Shown: positions 10,731-16,283 of the stretch, piece by piece
Numbering within the stretch: the stretch's first letter is position 1
Layout: every line of letters starts with the position of its first letter
Assembly: GCA_016278295.1 (NCBI GenBank)
Contig: JADQCC010000236.1
Coordinates: 1 to 40,637, forward strand
From: Roseovarius sp.
GTDB lineage: Bacteria; Pseudomonadota; Alphaproteobacteria; Rhodobacterales; Rhodobacteraceae
Length of the DNA stretch: 40,637 nucleotides
Reading direction: 5' to 3'
The notes under the pieces: generated by a model
What the model was told of the DNA's origin: nothing
The model's input: only the letters and a program-made list of their open reading frames with translations
The model's database searches: none
Program-made: the position numbers and the translations under genes

Positions 10731-11471
10731 ATGACCAAGCCCTTTCTCGTCCTGCAATTGCGCCCCGAGACCGAAGCCGCCGACGACGAATTCGCCGCGA
10801 TCCTGCGAAAGGGCGGGTTGGCAAACGATCGCGTGCGCCGCATCCGCCTCGATCAGCAATCGCTGCCCGCCGACCTGCGGCTCGCCGACCATGCCGGGGT
10901 GATCGTCGGCGGCGGCCCCGGCTGCGTGAGCGACGCGACCGACGAGAAATCCCCCGCCGAGGCGCGCATCGAGGATCAGGTGCTGTCGCTCATGCCCGCG
11001 ATCACCGGGGGCGACCTGCCGTTTCTCGGCTGCTGCTACGGCATCGGCATCCTCGGCAAGCATCTCGGCGGAGACGTGAGCAAGCGCGCACATGGCGAGC
11101 CGGTGGGCACCGCCGAATGCGCCCTCACCGGCGACGGTGCCGACGACCCGCTGCTTGCCGGGCTGCCCGACCGATTCAGCGCCTTTGTCGGTCACAAGGA
11201 GGCGTTGCAGGAGTTGCCAGCGGGCTGCACCCATCTCGTCGCCTCGCCGACCTGCCCATTCCAGATGGTGCGCTACGGGCGCAACGTCTATGCCACGCAG
11301 TTCCACCCCGAGGCTGACGCCGCCGGGTTCGAGACGCGCATCCGCATTTACCGTCACAAGGGCTATTTCGCCCCCGAGACGGCCGATGACCTCGTCGCCA
11401 TGTGCCGCGCCGCGGATGTCCACGCGCCCGAGCACATCCTGCGGAATTTCATCATCCGCTACGGCGGCTGA
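10731..11471 (+). CDS. class I glutamine amidotransferase (GMP synthase-like domain)
   Basis: A stand-alone GATase of 246 residues. The nucleophile is the second Cys of GCCYGIG (G-x-C-x-G), and the His-Glu pair is in YATQFHPEAD. The oxyanion strand VIVGGGPG is also present. Such proteins hydrolyse glutamine and pass ammonia to a partner, or hydrolyse gamma-glutamyl compounds. No synthetase partner is nearby, so the acceptor is unknown; this branch is usually annotated as glutamine amidotransferase or GMP synthase-like. Its last 20 bases overlap the 3' end of the convergent Hen1-like gene. Confidence 0.85.
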   Translation: MTKPFLVLQLRPETEAADDEFAAILRKGGLANDRVRRIRLDQQSLPADLRLADHAGVIVGGGPGCVSDATDEKSPAEARIEDQVLSLMPAITGGDLPFLGCCYGIGILGKHLGGDVSKRAHGEPVGTAECALTGDGADDPLLAGLPDRFSAFVGHKEALQELPAGCTHLVASPTCPFQMVRYGRNVYATQFHPEADAAGFETRIRIYRHKGYFAPETADDLVAMCRAADVHAPEHILRNFIIRYGG

Positions 11472-12054
11472 AGACCGCCATCTGACTCGCGCCGCCCAGG
11501 TCGGGATGCGCGCCGCAGATGTCATGAAACATCACCGTATAGCCATTGCGTGCCGCCACCCCCCGCCCCCAGCGGGCAAAGCGCCCCCGGTCCCATTCGA
11601 AATGGTGGTCGGGATGGCGAAAGCGGTGCGGCGGCACACCGAGCACGGGGTTGTACTCGGCATTGGGCGTGGTCACGATCACGTGGCCAGGCCGCATCGC
11701 GGCAAACACCGCACGTTCCAGCCGGTTGATATCGGCTTGCGGCAGGTGCTCGATCACCTCCACCAGGCAGGCGCAGTCATAGCCCGCCAGATTGGGGTGC
11801 GCCTGCGTGAGCGAGGCACAGGCAAGCTGCACCCGCGCGCCCCCCGCAGGCACCCCGGCCAGCCGCGCCTGCGCGCGCCGGAGCCGTTCGGCGTCGATCT
11901 CGACCCCGGTGACCCGCCCGATCCCCGCCACGCCCGCCAGCCGCAACATCAGATCGCCATCGCCACAGCCCAGGTCGAGCACGGTGCGCGCGCCGGTCTC
12001 TGCCACGGCTGCAACCACGGTCGCCAGCCGTTCCTCGTGCAGCGCCGTGGTCAT
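11452..12054 (-). CDS. Hen1-like small-RNA 3'-terminal 2'-O-methyltransferase (single domain)
   Basis: A 200-residue class I SAM methyltransferase. Motif I is VLDLGCGDGDL and the acidic strand is VTGVEID. It matches the HEN1 methyltransferase domain beyond the generic fold: EVIEHL supplies the E-x-x-E-H metal ligands, TTPNAEYN matches the conserved STPN-x-E-[FY]-N, and RHPDHHFEWDRGRF matches the D-H-x-FEW motif with the fourth ligand. Hen1 enzymes methylate the 2'-OH of 3'-terminal nucleotides of RNA, protecting ends. Typical bacterial Hen1 has an extra N-terminal domain and a Pnkp partner for RNA repair; neither is present here. The gene overlaps the upstream zinc-ribbon methyltransferase by four bases. 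The family call is by eye against remembered sequences. The RNA substrate is unknown. Confidence 0.75.
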   Translation of the reverse strand: MTTALHEERLATVVAAVAETGARTVLDLGCGDGDLMLRLAGVAGIGRVTGVEIDAERLRRAQARLAGVPAGGARVQLACASLTQAHPNLAGYDCACLVEVIEHLPQADINRLERAVFAAMRPGHVIVTTPNAEYNPVLGVPPHRFRHPDHHFEWDRGRFARWGRGVAARNGYTVMFHDICGAHPDLGGASQMAVFSRRSG

Positions 12055-12707
12055 GGTCCCGGCACCCGCAGGAGCGCCACGTCCTTGCGCGGTACCTCGC
12101 AGACCCAGCCGCGCGCGGCAGCGAGGGTGGCAAAGGTCTCGGCACGGTAGAACACGACATGGGTGGGGTCCTTGCGGTAATGCCAGCCGCCGAACCGCGC
12201 ATCGTCGGTCTGGAAGCAGGTCATCACCGCCAGCCAGCCACCGGGACGCAGCATCGCGCCCAGCCGATCGAATTCCTCCGCCGGACGATGGAAATGCTCG
12301 ATCACCTCCGTGCAGGTAATGAAATCATGGGAATCGGCCAGCGGCGCGGGATCGGGGGCATAGAAGGGATCAAAGAGCGCCATCTCGTGCCCCGCATCGC
12401 GCAGCATCGCGGCCAGCGCAGGGCCCGGGCCGCAGCCATAATCGAGCCCCCGCGCACCGGGCGCGAGCCGCGCAAGAAGCGGCGAGGCGAGGCGGTCGAG
12501 AAACCGGCGGTAGCCGGGATCGTCCACCGCGTTCTCGTGCCGGTCATACTCGGCGCGCTCGACCGCCGCGCCCGGATAATGGCCGGGGTTCATCCCGCGC
12601 GCGCCGCAGGCGTCGCAGCGCCAGTATCCCTTGCCGCCGAACACCCCGAAATCCGCGAGCCTCTCGGCGCGGCAGACGGGGCAGCGGGCGGGCAAGAGGG
12701 ACTGCAT
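12051..12707 (-). CDS. zinc-ribbon class I SAM-dependent methyltransferase
   Basis: A 218-residue protein. It begins with a four-cysteine zinc ribbon (CPVC at 9-12, CDAC at about 31-34) and continues with a SAM-binding domain (motif I GLDYGCGPGPAL). TEVIEHFHRPAEEFDRL and LRPGGWLAVMT fit the Methyltransf_23/UbiG-like group. The family varies in substrate; a zinc ribbon before the catalytic domain occurs in some RNA methyltransferases such as RlmA, but the rest does not identify it. The four-base overlap with the Hen1-like gene suggests the two products are made together. The start at 12707 gives the complete ribbon. Confidence 0.75.
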   Translation of the reverse strand: MQSLLPARCPVCRAERLADFGVFGGKGYWRCDACGARGMNPGHYPGAAVERAEYDRHENAVDDPGYRRFLDRLASPLLARLAPGARGLDYGCGPGPALAAMLRDAGHEMALFDPFYAPDPAPLADSHDFITCTEVIEHFHRPAEEFDRLGAMLRPGGWLAVMTCFQTDDARFGGWHYRKDPTHVVFYRAETFATLAAARGWVCEVPRKDVALLRVPGP

Positions 12708-12824: not shown

Positions 12825-13859
12825 ATGGCGCGGCGCACCCATTTCGAGATCGGCGGCCAGCGGGTCGCACCGGGCACCCGCGCCCGCGTCGATATCCCCG
12901 TGAGCCAGCTGTCCAATCACACGCCGGTGCACCTCTCGGTCGAGGTGATCCACGGGCGGCGCAAGGGGCCGGTGCTGTTCGTCTCGGCGGCGATCCACGG
13001 CGACGAGGTGATCGGGGTCGAGATCGTGCGCCGCCTGCTGCGCGCCACGCCGCTGCGGTCGATGGCGGGCACGCTGCTGGCGGTGCCGATCGTCAACACC
13101 TTCGGTTTTCTCAACCATTCTCGCTACCTGCCCGACCGGCGCGACCTCAACCGCGTCTTTCCGGGCCTCTCGGCAGGCTCGATGGCCTCGCAACTGGCGC
13201 ATATCTTCATGGAAGAGGTGGTACGCCGCTCCGACGTGGGGATCGACCTGCACTCGGCGGCGATCCACCGCTCCAACCTGCCGCAGATCCGCCTCACGCC
13301 GGACAACGAGCGGCTGGCCGATCTCGGCGCTGCCTTCGGTGCGCCGGTGATGATGGAATCCAGCCTGCGCGACGGCTCGCTGCGCATGGCCGCCGAGGAG
13401 GCTGGCGTCGACGTCCTGCTCTACGAGGGCGGCGAGGGGCTGCGCTTCGACGAGGCGGCGGCGCGCGCCGGGGTGGCCGGCACGCTGCGGGTGATGCGCC
13501 GGCTGGGCATGATCGCGGCCAAGGGCGTGCCGCGGGCCAAGGCACGGCCGGTACGCGCACGCACCTCGTCGTGGTATCGCGCGCCGCGCGGCGGGCTGTT
13601 TCGCGGCTTCGTGGGGCTTGGGGATGCGGTCGCGCCGGGCACCGTGCTGGGGGCGGTGGCAAATGCCTTCGGCGATGTCGAGAGCGAGATCGTCAGCGAC
13701 CAGACCGGCATCCTGATCGGACGCACAAACATGCCGGTGGTCTACGAGGGCGACGCGCTCTTTCACGTCGCCGAAACCGCCCGCGCCGCGGCCGCCGCCG
13801 AGGGTATCAGCGCCCATCTCGACGTGGGCGCGCTCTTTGACGAGGATGAGATCATCTGA
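12825..13859 (+). CDS. succinylglutamate desuccinylase/aspartoacylase family zinc deacylase
   Basis: A 344-residue M14-like zinc hydrolase of the AstE/AspA superfamily. Zinc ligands are in AIHGDEVIG (His, Glu) and DLHSAAIHR (His), and NTFGFLNHSRYLPDRRDLNR is the arginine-bearing substrate loop usual in the family. The C-terminal part (RTSSWYRAPRGGLFRGF to LIGRTNMPVVYEGDALFHV) is the beta-rich domain of this group. It should cleave an N-acyl or amide bond of a small molecule. No arginine succinyltransferase genes are near, so a role in arginine degradation is not supported. GAGG lies about six bases before the ATG. Its stop shares one base with the start of the next gene. Confidence 0.83.
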   Translation: MARRTHFEIGGQRVAPGTRARVDIPVSQLSNHTPVHLSVEVIHGRRKGPVLFVSAAIHGDEVIGVEIVRRLLRATPLRSMAGTLLAVPIVNTFGFLNHSRYLPDRRDLNRVFPGLSAGSMASQLAHIFMEEVVRRSDVGIDLHSAAIHRSNLPQIRLTPDNERLADLGAAFGAPVMMESSLRDGSLRMAAEEAGVDVLLYEGGEGLRFDEAAARAGVAGTLRVMRRLGMIAAKGVPRAKARPVRARTSSWYRAPRGGLFRGFVGLGDAVAPGTVLGAVANAFGDVESEIVSDQTGILIGRTNMPVVYEGDALFHVAETARAAAAAEGISAHLDVGALFDEDEII

Positions 13860-14585: not shown

Positions 14586-15266
14586 TTACGTGACCTTTGC
14601 AGCGTTGCGTGGCCGCAGGAAGATCGACACCGTCAGCAGGCTGAACACGAACTCGTAGCTCTCCCACTTGGTCATCATCTGTACCGCCACGATCACCACC
14701 GTCGCCACCAGCGCGAGGATAACGTGCCGTGTATCCGCCACCGGGATCGCAAGCCGGTCCACAAGACGCGCCAGCGCCCCCACCCGCCCATAGACCAGCG
14801 GCAGCACCAGCAGGTAGAGCAGCATCACCAGCGACAACCCCCCGCCGAACAGCGTCTTGACGAGCTTGACATCACCCACCACGAGGTTGTGGATATTGGT
14901 CTCGCCCTGCGCGTTGTTCTCGCGAAAGAATTCCGTCGCCTCCCAATCGAGCAGCCGGTAGCCCCAGGATATCTCCTCGCCCGCGGCAAAGAAGAAGGCG
15001 AGCGCGTAAAGAACCGTCATCGCCACCGCCAGCACGCCGCGCCCGCGCAGGACCCACGCATTGCGCAGCAGCACCAGCGACGACAGCATCAGGCACACCG
15101 CCGTGCCCCATTCCGCCGGGCCGTCCTCGATGGCAAACCCTGTGCGAAACGCATCGTGCAGACCGGTGACGTAATAGCCCACGGTAAAGATCAGCGTGGC
15201 ATAACCGATGCCGAAGAGCACGGCATCGGCGTGGCTCAGATTCGAACGATCCGTGAGGCGAAACAT
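14586..15266 (-). CDS. tandem-paralogue membrane protein of unknown function (copy 2)
   Basis: A 226-residue protein with about five or six hydrophobic segments. It shares a distinct pattern with its upstream neighbour: EDGPAEWG after the first helix, then FFFAAGEEISWGYRLLDW, then ETNIHNLVVGDVKLVKTLFG, and SIFLRPRN near the C-terminus. The charged and polar residues (E-E-S-W-G-R, E-x-N-x-H-N) lie between membrane segments and are fully kept between the two copies, which suggests a membrane enzyme or binding site. The family was not recognised by name. The start at 15266 (MFRLTDRSN) is internal to a longer track ORF. The two copies probably arose by tandem duplication and form one operon. Confidence 0.7.
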   Translation of the reverse strand: MFRLTDRSNLSHADAVLFGIGYATLIFTVGYYVTGLHDAFRTGFAIEDGPAEWGTAVCLMLSSLVLLRNAWVLRGRGVLAVAMTVLYALAFFFAAGEEISWGYRLLDWEATEFFRENNAQGETNIHNLVVGDVKLVKTLFGGGLSLVMLLYLLVLPLVYGRVGALARLVDRLAIPVADTRHVILALVATVVIVAVQMMTKWESYEFVFSLLTVSIFLRPRNAAKVT

Positions 15267-15325
15267 GGGCGCGACCTTCCATGAGGGATACGATGACGGG
15301 CGGATATCCCAAGCCGCGCCGCGCA

Positions 15326-16039
15326 TCAAGCGTCGCGCGGCTCGACTGTCGCATCCCCGCGCACCGGGTTCGACTTGCGGGCGAATACATGACCGTTCTG
15401 CGGGTAGAGAAAGATCGACAGCGCCACGAAACTGAAGATTGTTTCGTAGATTTCCCACTTGCGCTGCAGGTCCACGACCGCGATCACCACCGATGCGGCC
15501 AGCACCAGCACCGCGTGGCGATAGCCCGCCACCGGAACGGCCCAGCGGTCCGCCAAGGCCGCAACCCGTGCCGACCGGCTGTAAAGGACCGTCAGCCCCA
15601 CCAGCCAACCCAACAGCACCACCGTCAGCACGTTGCCGAACAGCACCTTGACGAGCTTGACCTCCCCCACCTTGAGGTTGTGCAGGTTGGTCTCGGAACG
15701 AAAGCTGTTGTCGGTGATGATCTCGGGCGCCTGCCAGTCGAATATCCGCTGCCCCCAGGAAATCTCCTCGCCCGCGGCAAAGAAGAACAGGGCCGCACCT
15801 ACCGCCATTGTCACCACAGCCCGCCGCTCGCCCGCCCCGGCAAAGCGGAGCGCCTGCCGCGCCAGCACAGTGAAAGAAAGAAACAGCAGCACAATCGTGG
15901 CCCATTCCGCCGGCCCATCCTCGGCGGCATAGACGGTTTGGAAGACATCCGTCTGAACGAAGTGAAAGACGATCAGTGCGAAGATGTTGGCGACGACGAG
16001 CGCCAGAAGCACCTTGTCGAAAACGGGCGGTTTGATCAT
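15326..16039 (-). CDS. tandem-paralogue membrane protein of unknown function (copy 1)
   Basis: A 237-residue polytopic membrane protein, paralogous to the next gene downstream. Shared blocks are EDGPAEWA, FFFAAGEEISWGQRIFDW, ETNLHNLKVGEVKLVKVLFG and SIFLYPQN. It has about five or six predicted membrane helices and a longer hydrophilic C-terminus. The ATG at 16039 is chosen because AGGAG is well placed, rather than the track start at 16084. Fifty-nine bases separate it from copy 2. The function is unknown; the invariant acidic, Trp and His residues could bind metal or a lipid head group. No known partner gene is adjacent apart from the convergent sulfotransferase-like gene. Confidence 0.7.
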   Translation of the reverse strand: MIKPPVFDKVLLALVVANIFALIVFHFVQTDVFQTVYAAEDGPAEWATIVLLFLSFTVLARQALRFAGAGERRAVVTMAVGAALFFFAAGEEISWGQRIFDWQAPEIITDNSFRSETNLHNLKVGEVKLVKVLFGNVLTVVLLGWLVGLTVLYSRSARVAALADRWAVPVAGYRHAVLVLAASVVIAVVDLQRKWEIYETIFSFVALSIFLYPQNGHVFARKSNPVRGDATVEPRDA

Positions 16040-16283
16040 GCCGGGTCTCTCCTCACAAAGGGCGCCCGGCTCTTCGGGCCTCATCGGGCCGTGCGGAGTT
16101 AAAGATGGATCCGCACCGTTTTACACACCTGATACATTCCCGTCATGTATACGACACATACCCATCGCGTTCCAGCACCAGGCGTATCCGCCCGGTCCGG
16201 CTCAGGACATCGTGATGTCCCTCAACGCGAACAGGCGCGCCCGAAAGGACGCGCCCGCCAGTCAATTCCGCAGATTGGGGCCT
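16040..16283. other. asd downstream / membrane-pair upstream intergenic region with several inverted repeats
   Basis: This 244-base gap contains no plausible gene. It holds GTGCGGA/TCCGCAC arms (16091-16116), ATACAT/ATGTAT arms (16132-16150), a compact GGACATC-GT-GATGTCC repeat (16205-16220) and GGCGCG/CGCGCC arms (16234-16255). The last two lie just after asd and may terminate its transcript, although no T run follows. The ATACAT repeat lies upstream of the membrane-protein pair and may mark its promoter or an operator. Confidence 0.4.

Follow-up and report, generated by a model that had tools for sequence, protein, structure and literature searches.

A stand-alone Hen1 methyltransferase translationally coupled to a zinc-ribbon methyltransferase in Roseovarius: a candidate Pnkp-independent RNA 3'-terminal 2'-O-methyltransferase

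Results

Organization of the locus

The window, that is, the whole 40,637-nucleotide stretch of Roseovarius sp. DNA analysed here, carries two overlapping methyltransferase genes, hen1 and a gene that we call ZnMT. The features of the locus are as follows (positions in the window, strand, description, basis).

10731-11471, plus: class I glutamine amidotransferase, convergent, downstream (NF005743, 9.7e-98)
11452-12054, minus: hen1, assigned to the methyltransferase half of bacterial Hen1, 200 aa (TIGR04074, PDB, AlphaFold2/Foldseek, dN/dS)
11593-11619, minus: RHPDHHFEW, the Hen1 signature, which holds H150 as fourth metal ligand (alignment)
11746-11760, minus: EVIEH, metal ligands E99/E102/H103 of Hen1 (alignment)
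12051-12054, minus: ATGA stop/start overlap of ZnMT and hen1, 4 bases (read directly)
12051-12707, minus: ZnMT gene, zinc-ribbon class I methyltransferase, 218 aa, 5' partner of hen1
12606-12683, minus: zinc ribbon of ZnMT, C9-x2-C12 ... C31-x2-C34 (22-homologue alignment)
12825-13859, plus: AstE/AspA-type deacylase, divergent flank, upstream (PF24827, 5.8e-37)

Both open reading frames lie where the original prediction had placed them, on the minus strand with a 4-base overlap, and the motifs read in their translations are present (EVIEHL, TTPNAEYN and RHPDHHFEW in the 200-residue protein, CPVC and CDAC in the 218-residue protein). The ATGA overlap couples the two genes translationally. The glutamine amidotransferase gene overlaps the 3' end of hen1 by 20 bases and also adjoins Hen1 at locus L023, and the AstE/AspA-type deacylase is the usual Hen1 neighbour in Roseovarius (synteny in L024-L031 and L035). 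We considered AstE, a sulfotransferase and the glutamine amidotransferase as members of the unit and rejected them as bystanders, their recurrence being confined to Roseovarius. Elsewhere the window (14586-16084) encodes a tandem set of paralogous membrane-like proteins for which Pfam gave no match; at the equivalent place, relatives have as many as three copies (L027, L035).

The 200-residue protein belongs by sequence and predicted fold to Hen1

Profile search, solved structures and predicted fold all put Hen1 far ahead of other families, in keeping with the predicted membership. The protein matched TIGR04074, the equivalog model for bacterial Hen1 of RNA repair, at 2.9e-58 and 197.5 bits over model positions 264-462 of 462, below the curated cut-off of 340 bits. 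No other methyltransferase family outranked this match; the next best, UbiG, scored 3.6e-08 and 33 bits, below its own cut-off of 102.95 bits. The best PDB sequence matches were solved Hen1 methyltransferase domains (3jwh, 1.6e-40). Moreover, the top 11 Foldseek matches of the AlphaFold2 model (mean pLDDT 92.8) were all AvHen1-C, CtHen1-C or human or Arabidopsis HEN1 (TM 0.83-0.89), with AvHen1-C first (TM 0.87). Judged from its sequence and modelled structure, the protein is the methyltransferase half of a bacterial Hen1 and a member of the HEN1 superfamily.

The metal ligands of HEN1 are Glu796, Glu799, His800 and His860 in Arabidopsis and Glu132, Glu135, His136 and His181 in human (PMC10781085). 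They correspond to E99, E102, H103 and H150 of the Roseovarius protein, which in our alignment are identical in all 70 stand-alone and all 19 two-domain Hen1s; the motif-I Asp is also conserved in Hen1. All four ligands expected from the motifs are there, and the alignment refines the position of one: with the H150 region aligned to SDHKFEW of human HEN1, the fourth ligand is His150, the first H of the HH in RHPDHHFEW, and not the leading RH.

Between Roseovarius relatives, dN/dS was 0.10-0.21 for hen1 and 0.17-0.28 for ZnMT, and this purifying selection indicates that both are real genes. A frame break in ZnMT of one relative (G015) falls on an N in the assembly and is likely an artefact.

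Stand-alone Hen1s form a clade apart from Pnkp-linked Hen1

We scanned one genome per GTDB species, and the best 80 matches gave 80 named loci, which together with the Roseovarius loci comprise 71 distinct stand-alone and 19 two-domain Hen1s. In a maximum-likelihood tree, one branch splits the stand-alone proteins from the two-domain and human HEN1 sequences (UFBoot 99, FastTree 1.0). On this phylogenetic evidence, the stand-alone Hen1s are a single coherent clade apart from Pnkp-linked Hen1, and the Roseovarius protein is not a lone truncation. Among the matches listed, the hosts are Alpha-, Beta-, Gamma- and Deltaproteobacteria and one acidobacterium; they include many Rhodobacteraceae, Rhizobiales, Parvibaculum, Nitrosomonas halophila, Thiobacillus, Rhodoferax, Vreelandella, Chromatiaceae, Desulfuromonadales and a Bryobacteraceae MAG.

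Several other origins were considered and rejected. The single clade, purifying selection and the invariant active site rule out a two-domain Hen1 that was truncated or became a pseudogene. No phage record was matched, the lone viral contig match reaching 25% identity over 138 residues, and the single PADLOC match was to the generic methyltransferase core of mad2, which removes an anti-phage system from consideration. An apparent 572-aa Hen1 fusion at L071 is an antisense-type open frame whose first 370 residues have no Pfam family.

The N-terminal half is absent from the 200-residue protein, as predicted: the TIGR04074 match begins only at model position 264, and the gene 5' of hen1 is ZnMT. 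The predicted absence of Pnkp likewise held. No full Pnkp was found in the genome of the window (G000, 89% complete), where only weak matches to phosphatase- or kinase-module fragments appeared, nor, with the Pnkp model in 60 relatives, in any relative with a stand-alone Hen1, where only isolated phosphatase- or kinase-like fragments were seen. The one relative of the 60 with a full Pnkp, G027, is also the only sampled genome of the genus with a two-domain Hen1 (470 aa), and that Hen1 lies close to Pnkp. The ligase domain of the Pnkp model had no match in stand-alone-Hen1 relatives, although Rnl, about 20% identical to the model, could escape this search. Among the matches listed, 17 of the 19 two-domain Hen1 genes have Pnkp beside them, versus none of the 71 distinct stand-alone genes (Fisher 2e-16). 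Two-domain Hen1 genes with no adjacent Pnkp occur at L102 (Planctomycetota) and L109 (Oscillochloris).

ZnMT resembles nucleotide-sugar C-methyltransferases in fold

ZnMT matched Methyltransf_23 at 8.2e-28 and is distantly similar to UbiG (21.4 bits, below the cut-off of 102.95 bits). Its four zinc cysteines are identical in 22 of 22 homologues in the family alignment. The top 16 Foldseek matches of the AlphaFold2 model (pLDDT 91.8) were all nucleotide-sugar C-methyltransferases, with E values from 4e-9 to 6e-7 and TM 0.58-0.70. Like TcaB9, KijD1 and MtmC, ZnMT places a zinc module N-terminal to a Methyltransf_23-type core, a similarity of fold only. Unlike these enzymes, it has 218 rather than about 405 residues, lacks the C-terminal half and shares 12-19% identity with them. 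Neither the zinc domain nor the C-terminal Pfam domain of the sugar enzymes was among the families listed for 16 ZnMT members at E up to 1. We found no link of ZnMT to RNA beyond its coupling to Hen1.

ZnMT and stand-alone Hen1 are associated and separable

The overlapping pair is conserved in relatives, as the original prediction required. ZnMT adjoins 25 of the 71 distinct stand-alone Hen1 loci among the matches listed, the other 46 having no adjacent ZnMT, and 20 of the 25 linked pairs keep an exact 4-base overlap (ATGA, GTGA or TTGA). The remaining linked pairs comprise one single-base overlap, three gaps of 4 to 211 bases and one arrangement with ZnMT downstream. However, the unit reaches beyond the Rhodobacterales of the original prediction, with linked pairs also in Hoeflea, a Mesorhizobium MAG, Nitrosomonas halophila, Chromatiaceae and Bryobacteraceae.

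In an even set of 385 alphaproteobacterial genomes, ZnMT was present in all 6 genomes with a stand-alone Hen1 versus 7 of the 379 others (Fisher 4e-10), and the co-occurrence persisted when counted by genus with Roseovarius left out (Fisher 3e-5). None of the 6 genomes of this set with a two-domain Hen1 carried ZnMT. ZnMT and hen1 lie on different contigs in four of the six stand-alone carriers of this set, so the association is not due to linkage alone. A phylum sample of 319 genomes had ZnMT in 4 of 5 stand-alone carriers (the window included, three being of one genus), or in 3 of the 4 carriers other than the window, and in 0 of 6 two-domain carriers.

The two genes also occur apart. ZnMT was found in 29 of the 319 phylum-sample genomes, mostly with no Hen1, and ZnMT without Hen1 is common, especially outside Alphaproteobacteria. 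Within Roseovarius, 5 of 12 Hen1 carriers have ZnMT and 7 lack it wholly; R. azorensis, for example, carries the pair and R. lutimaris has only Hen1. Two loci hold decayed copies: at L049 (3500-3943) the 5' ZnMT gene has a large internal deletion and hen1 is intact, and at L050 (5444-6004) SpdS/ZnMT remnants stand beside an intact hen1. Carriers of either gene alone, together with ZnMT decay beside an intact hen1, indicate that Hen1 and ZnMT each work without the other. The proposal that both enzymes act jointly on RNA ends or tRNA fragments is not supported: ZnMT is missing from beside the majority of stand-alone hen1 genes, most Roseovarius carriers have no ZnMT at all, and ZnMT is common without Hen1 and nearest in fold to solved nucleotide-sugar C-methyltransferases. 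ZnMT is probably a functionally allied yet separable enzyme with its own substrate, co-translated with Hen1 in this lineage.

Other recurring neighbours

A spermidine-synthase-like protein is encoded 5' of ZnMT at L045 (4605-5321), L061, L070 (4593-5321), L079 and L095, adjoins Hen1 at L087, and pairs with ZnMT in two genomes with no Hen1 (G128 and G217). Its family has no Pfam family and no NCBIfam match above cut-off, and it was absent from 13 of 13 Roseovarius genomes tested. A SulP anion transporter and a universal stress protein are encoded no more than a few kb from stand-alone Hen1 at seven loci (L045, L047, L052, L084, L089, L097 and L144), hosted by Rhodobacteraceae, Thiobacillus/Hydrogenophilales and a Comamonas plasmid. 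A DksA/TraR-type zinc-finger protein occurs near stand-alone Hen1 in four unrelated genomes (L061, L085, L097 and L144), directly 5' of ZnMT in Nitrosomonas halophila and directly 5' of Hen1 in Comamonas. These SulP/universal stress protein and DksA/TraR neighbours, counted at Hen1 loci with no background rate, hint at stress islands. In the neighbourhoods examined, no RNA-processing gene was constant beside stand-alone Hen1, and no biosynthetic cluster was found.

Discussion

Bacterial Hen1 has been described as a component of RNA repair, either Pnkp-Hen1 or Pnkp1-Rnl-Hen1, and its N-terminal domain activates the ligase in both known complexes (PMC4411300). An early survey with six bacterial sequences urged the study of short bacterial Hen1 forms (PMC1397878). 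We found no paper on the stand-alone clade or the ZnMT-hen1 pair in the openly searchable literature, subscription papers lying outside it. The stand-alone Hen1s appear to be a widespread, overlooked bacterial branch. A clade that keeps the catalytic site and has neither the ligase-activating domain nor the ligase would imply that methylation of RNA 3' ends serves some other purpose in bacteria.

Compared with known systems, stand-alone Hen1 shares with AvHen1 and CtHen1 the methyltransferase fold, about 37% identity, the four metal ligands and the RHxDHxFEW and TTPNxEYN motifs, but it differs in the missing N-terminal ligase-activating domain, the missing Pnkp gene, the separate clade and a score of 197.5 bits against a cut-off of 340. 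The Capnocytophaga Pnkp1-Rnl-Hen1 system (4xrp) is similar in catalytic fold and in having hen1 unlinked from the repair genes; however, its Hen1 is a two-domain protein that spans about 424 residues in the structure and is about 20% identical to stand-alone Hen1, and in the carriers studied here neither Pnkp nor a match to the Pnkp-model ligase was found (a match that Rnl, as noted, could escape). Animal HEN1/HENMT1 (5wy0, 4xcx) has a similar methyltransferase domain and metal site (TM 0.83-0.85), but shows 29-30% identity, falls outside the stand-alone clade and is tied to Piwi/Argonaute RNAs, Piwi being absent in 12 carriers.

Taken together, we favour, with somewhat better than even confidence, the reading that the Roseovarius Hen1 is a Pnkp-independent, metal-dependent RNA 3'-terminal ribose 2'-O-methyltransferase, translationally coupled to a separable ZnMT. 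By analogy with its family and given the intact residues, Hen1 would bind SAM and a free RNA 3' end, the latter via Mn2+ (or Mg2+) held by E99, E102, H103 and H150, and by homology would use SAM to methylate the terminal 2'-OH. The missing domain and the missing Pnkp support an action outside Pnkp-driven ligation repair. Clostridial Hen1 is catalytically active in vitro as an isolated methyltransferase domain. We speculate that the methylated end may resist 3'-5' exonucleases, tailing and re-cleavage, and the biological role, at a guess, would most likely be protection of RNA ends during stress. More tentatively, and with appreciably less than even confidence, we propose for Proteobacteria a dedicated ligation- and Argonaute-independent system of 3'-end 2'-O-methylation, consisting of the stand-alone Hen1 clade with a coupled ZnMT in part of its range, that may mark or protect a class of RNA ends under stress.

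Against the RNA-end methyltransferase stands the lack of a constant RNA-processing neighbour, together with a ZnMT that folds most like sugar C-methyltransferases and is common without Hen1. In addition, the descent of Hen1 from small-molecule methyltransferases, HEN1 being nearest to UbiG-type enzymes (PMC1397878), leaves room for a changed substrate. Carried further, this descent and the fold of ZnMT would make both proteins small-molecule methyltransferases, with the Hen1-like protein retargeted off RNA. We regard this as quite improbable, given that the RNA-end metal site and its surrounding signature are invariant, that RNA-acting Hen1s resemble the protein far more than any small-molecule enzyme does, and that no biosynthetic cluster surrounds it. 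A repair function in trans, in which Hen1 supplies the methylation step alongside a ligase encoded elsewhere, either RtcB or a distant Rnl, has a precedent in the split Pnkp1-Rnl-Hen1 system, where Capnocytophaga hen1 lies far from pnkp1-rnl (PMC4411300). The absent ligase-activating domain, the lack of a Pnkp ligase-domain match in stand-alone-Hen1 relatives and the separate clade make it unlikely. Least probable by far is a role in small-RNA silencing, in which Hen1 would mark Argonaute guides like eukaryotic HEN1. Single-stranded small RNA is also a substrate of animal HEN1, whose catalytic domain is active when isolated (PMC8220740); however, human HEN1 lies outside the stand-alone bacterial clade, and no Piwi domain was found in 12 of 12 Roseovarius carrier genomes, the control genome M. 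jannaschii being positive. An Argonaute link for Roseovarius Hen1 is strongly disfavoured.

A different question is whether the coupling itself carries meaning. Hen1 and ZnMT could be accessory genes in horizontally moving stress islands, joined incidentally and with no common substrate or pathway, and we give this explanation a substantial chance, a little short of even. It fits the many ZnMT genomes with no Hen1, the 46 stand-alone loci among the matches listed with no adjacent ZnMT, the ZnMT remnants 5' of intact hen1, and the generic stress character of the other recurrent neighbours. On the other hand, co-occurrence holds where the genes are unlinked (G050, G222, G316, G394, G477, G537 and G570), and the 4-base overlap is retained across orders in 20 of 25 pairs. 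The pairwise distances of Hen1 and ZnMT also correlate (r 0.69, 0 of 2000 permutations), although shared ancestry alone would give the same.

Stand-alone Hen1 is nearly invisible in annotation because the curated model requires both domains; the one annotated member seen, from Comamonas, bears the RefSeq label "methyltransferase domain-containing protein". Judged by organism names alone, carriers often come from soda or hypersaline lakes or salterns, including Natronohydrobacter, Alkalilacustris, Rhodovulum steppense, Rhodovulum tesquicola, Nitrosomonas halophila, Roseibaca and CSSed/GSL MAGs.
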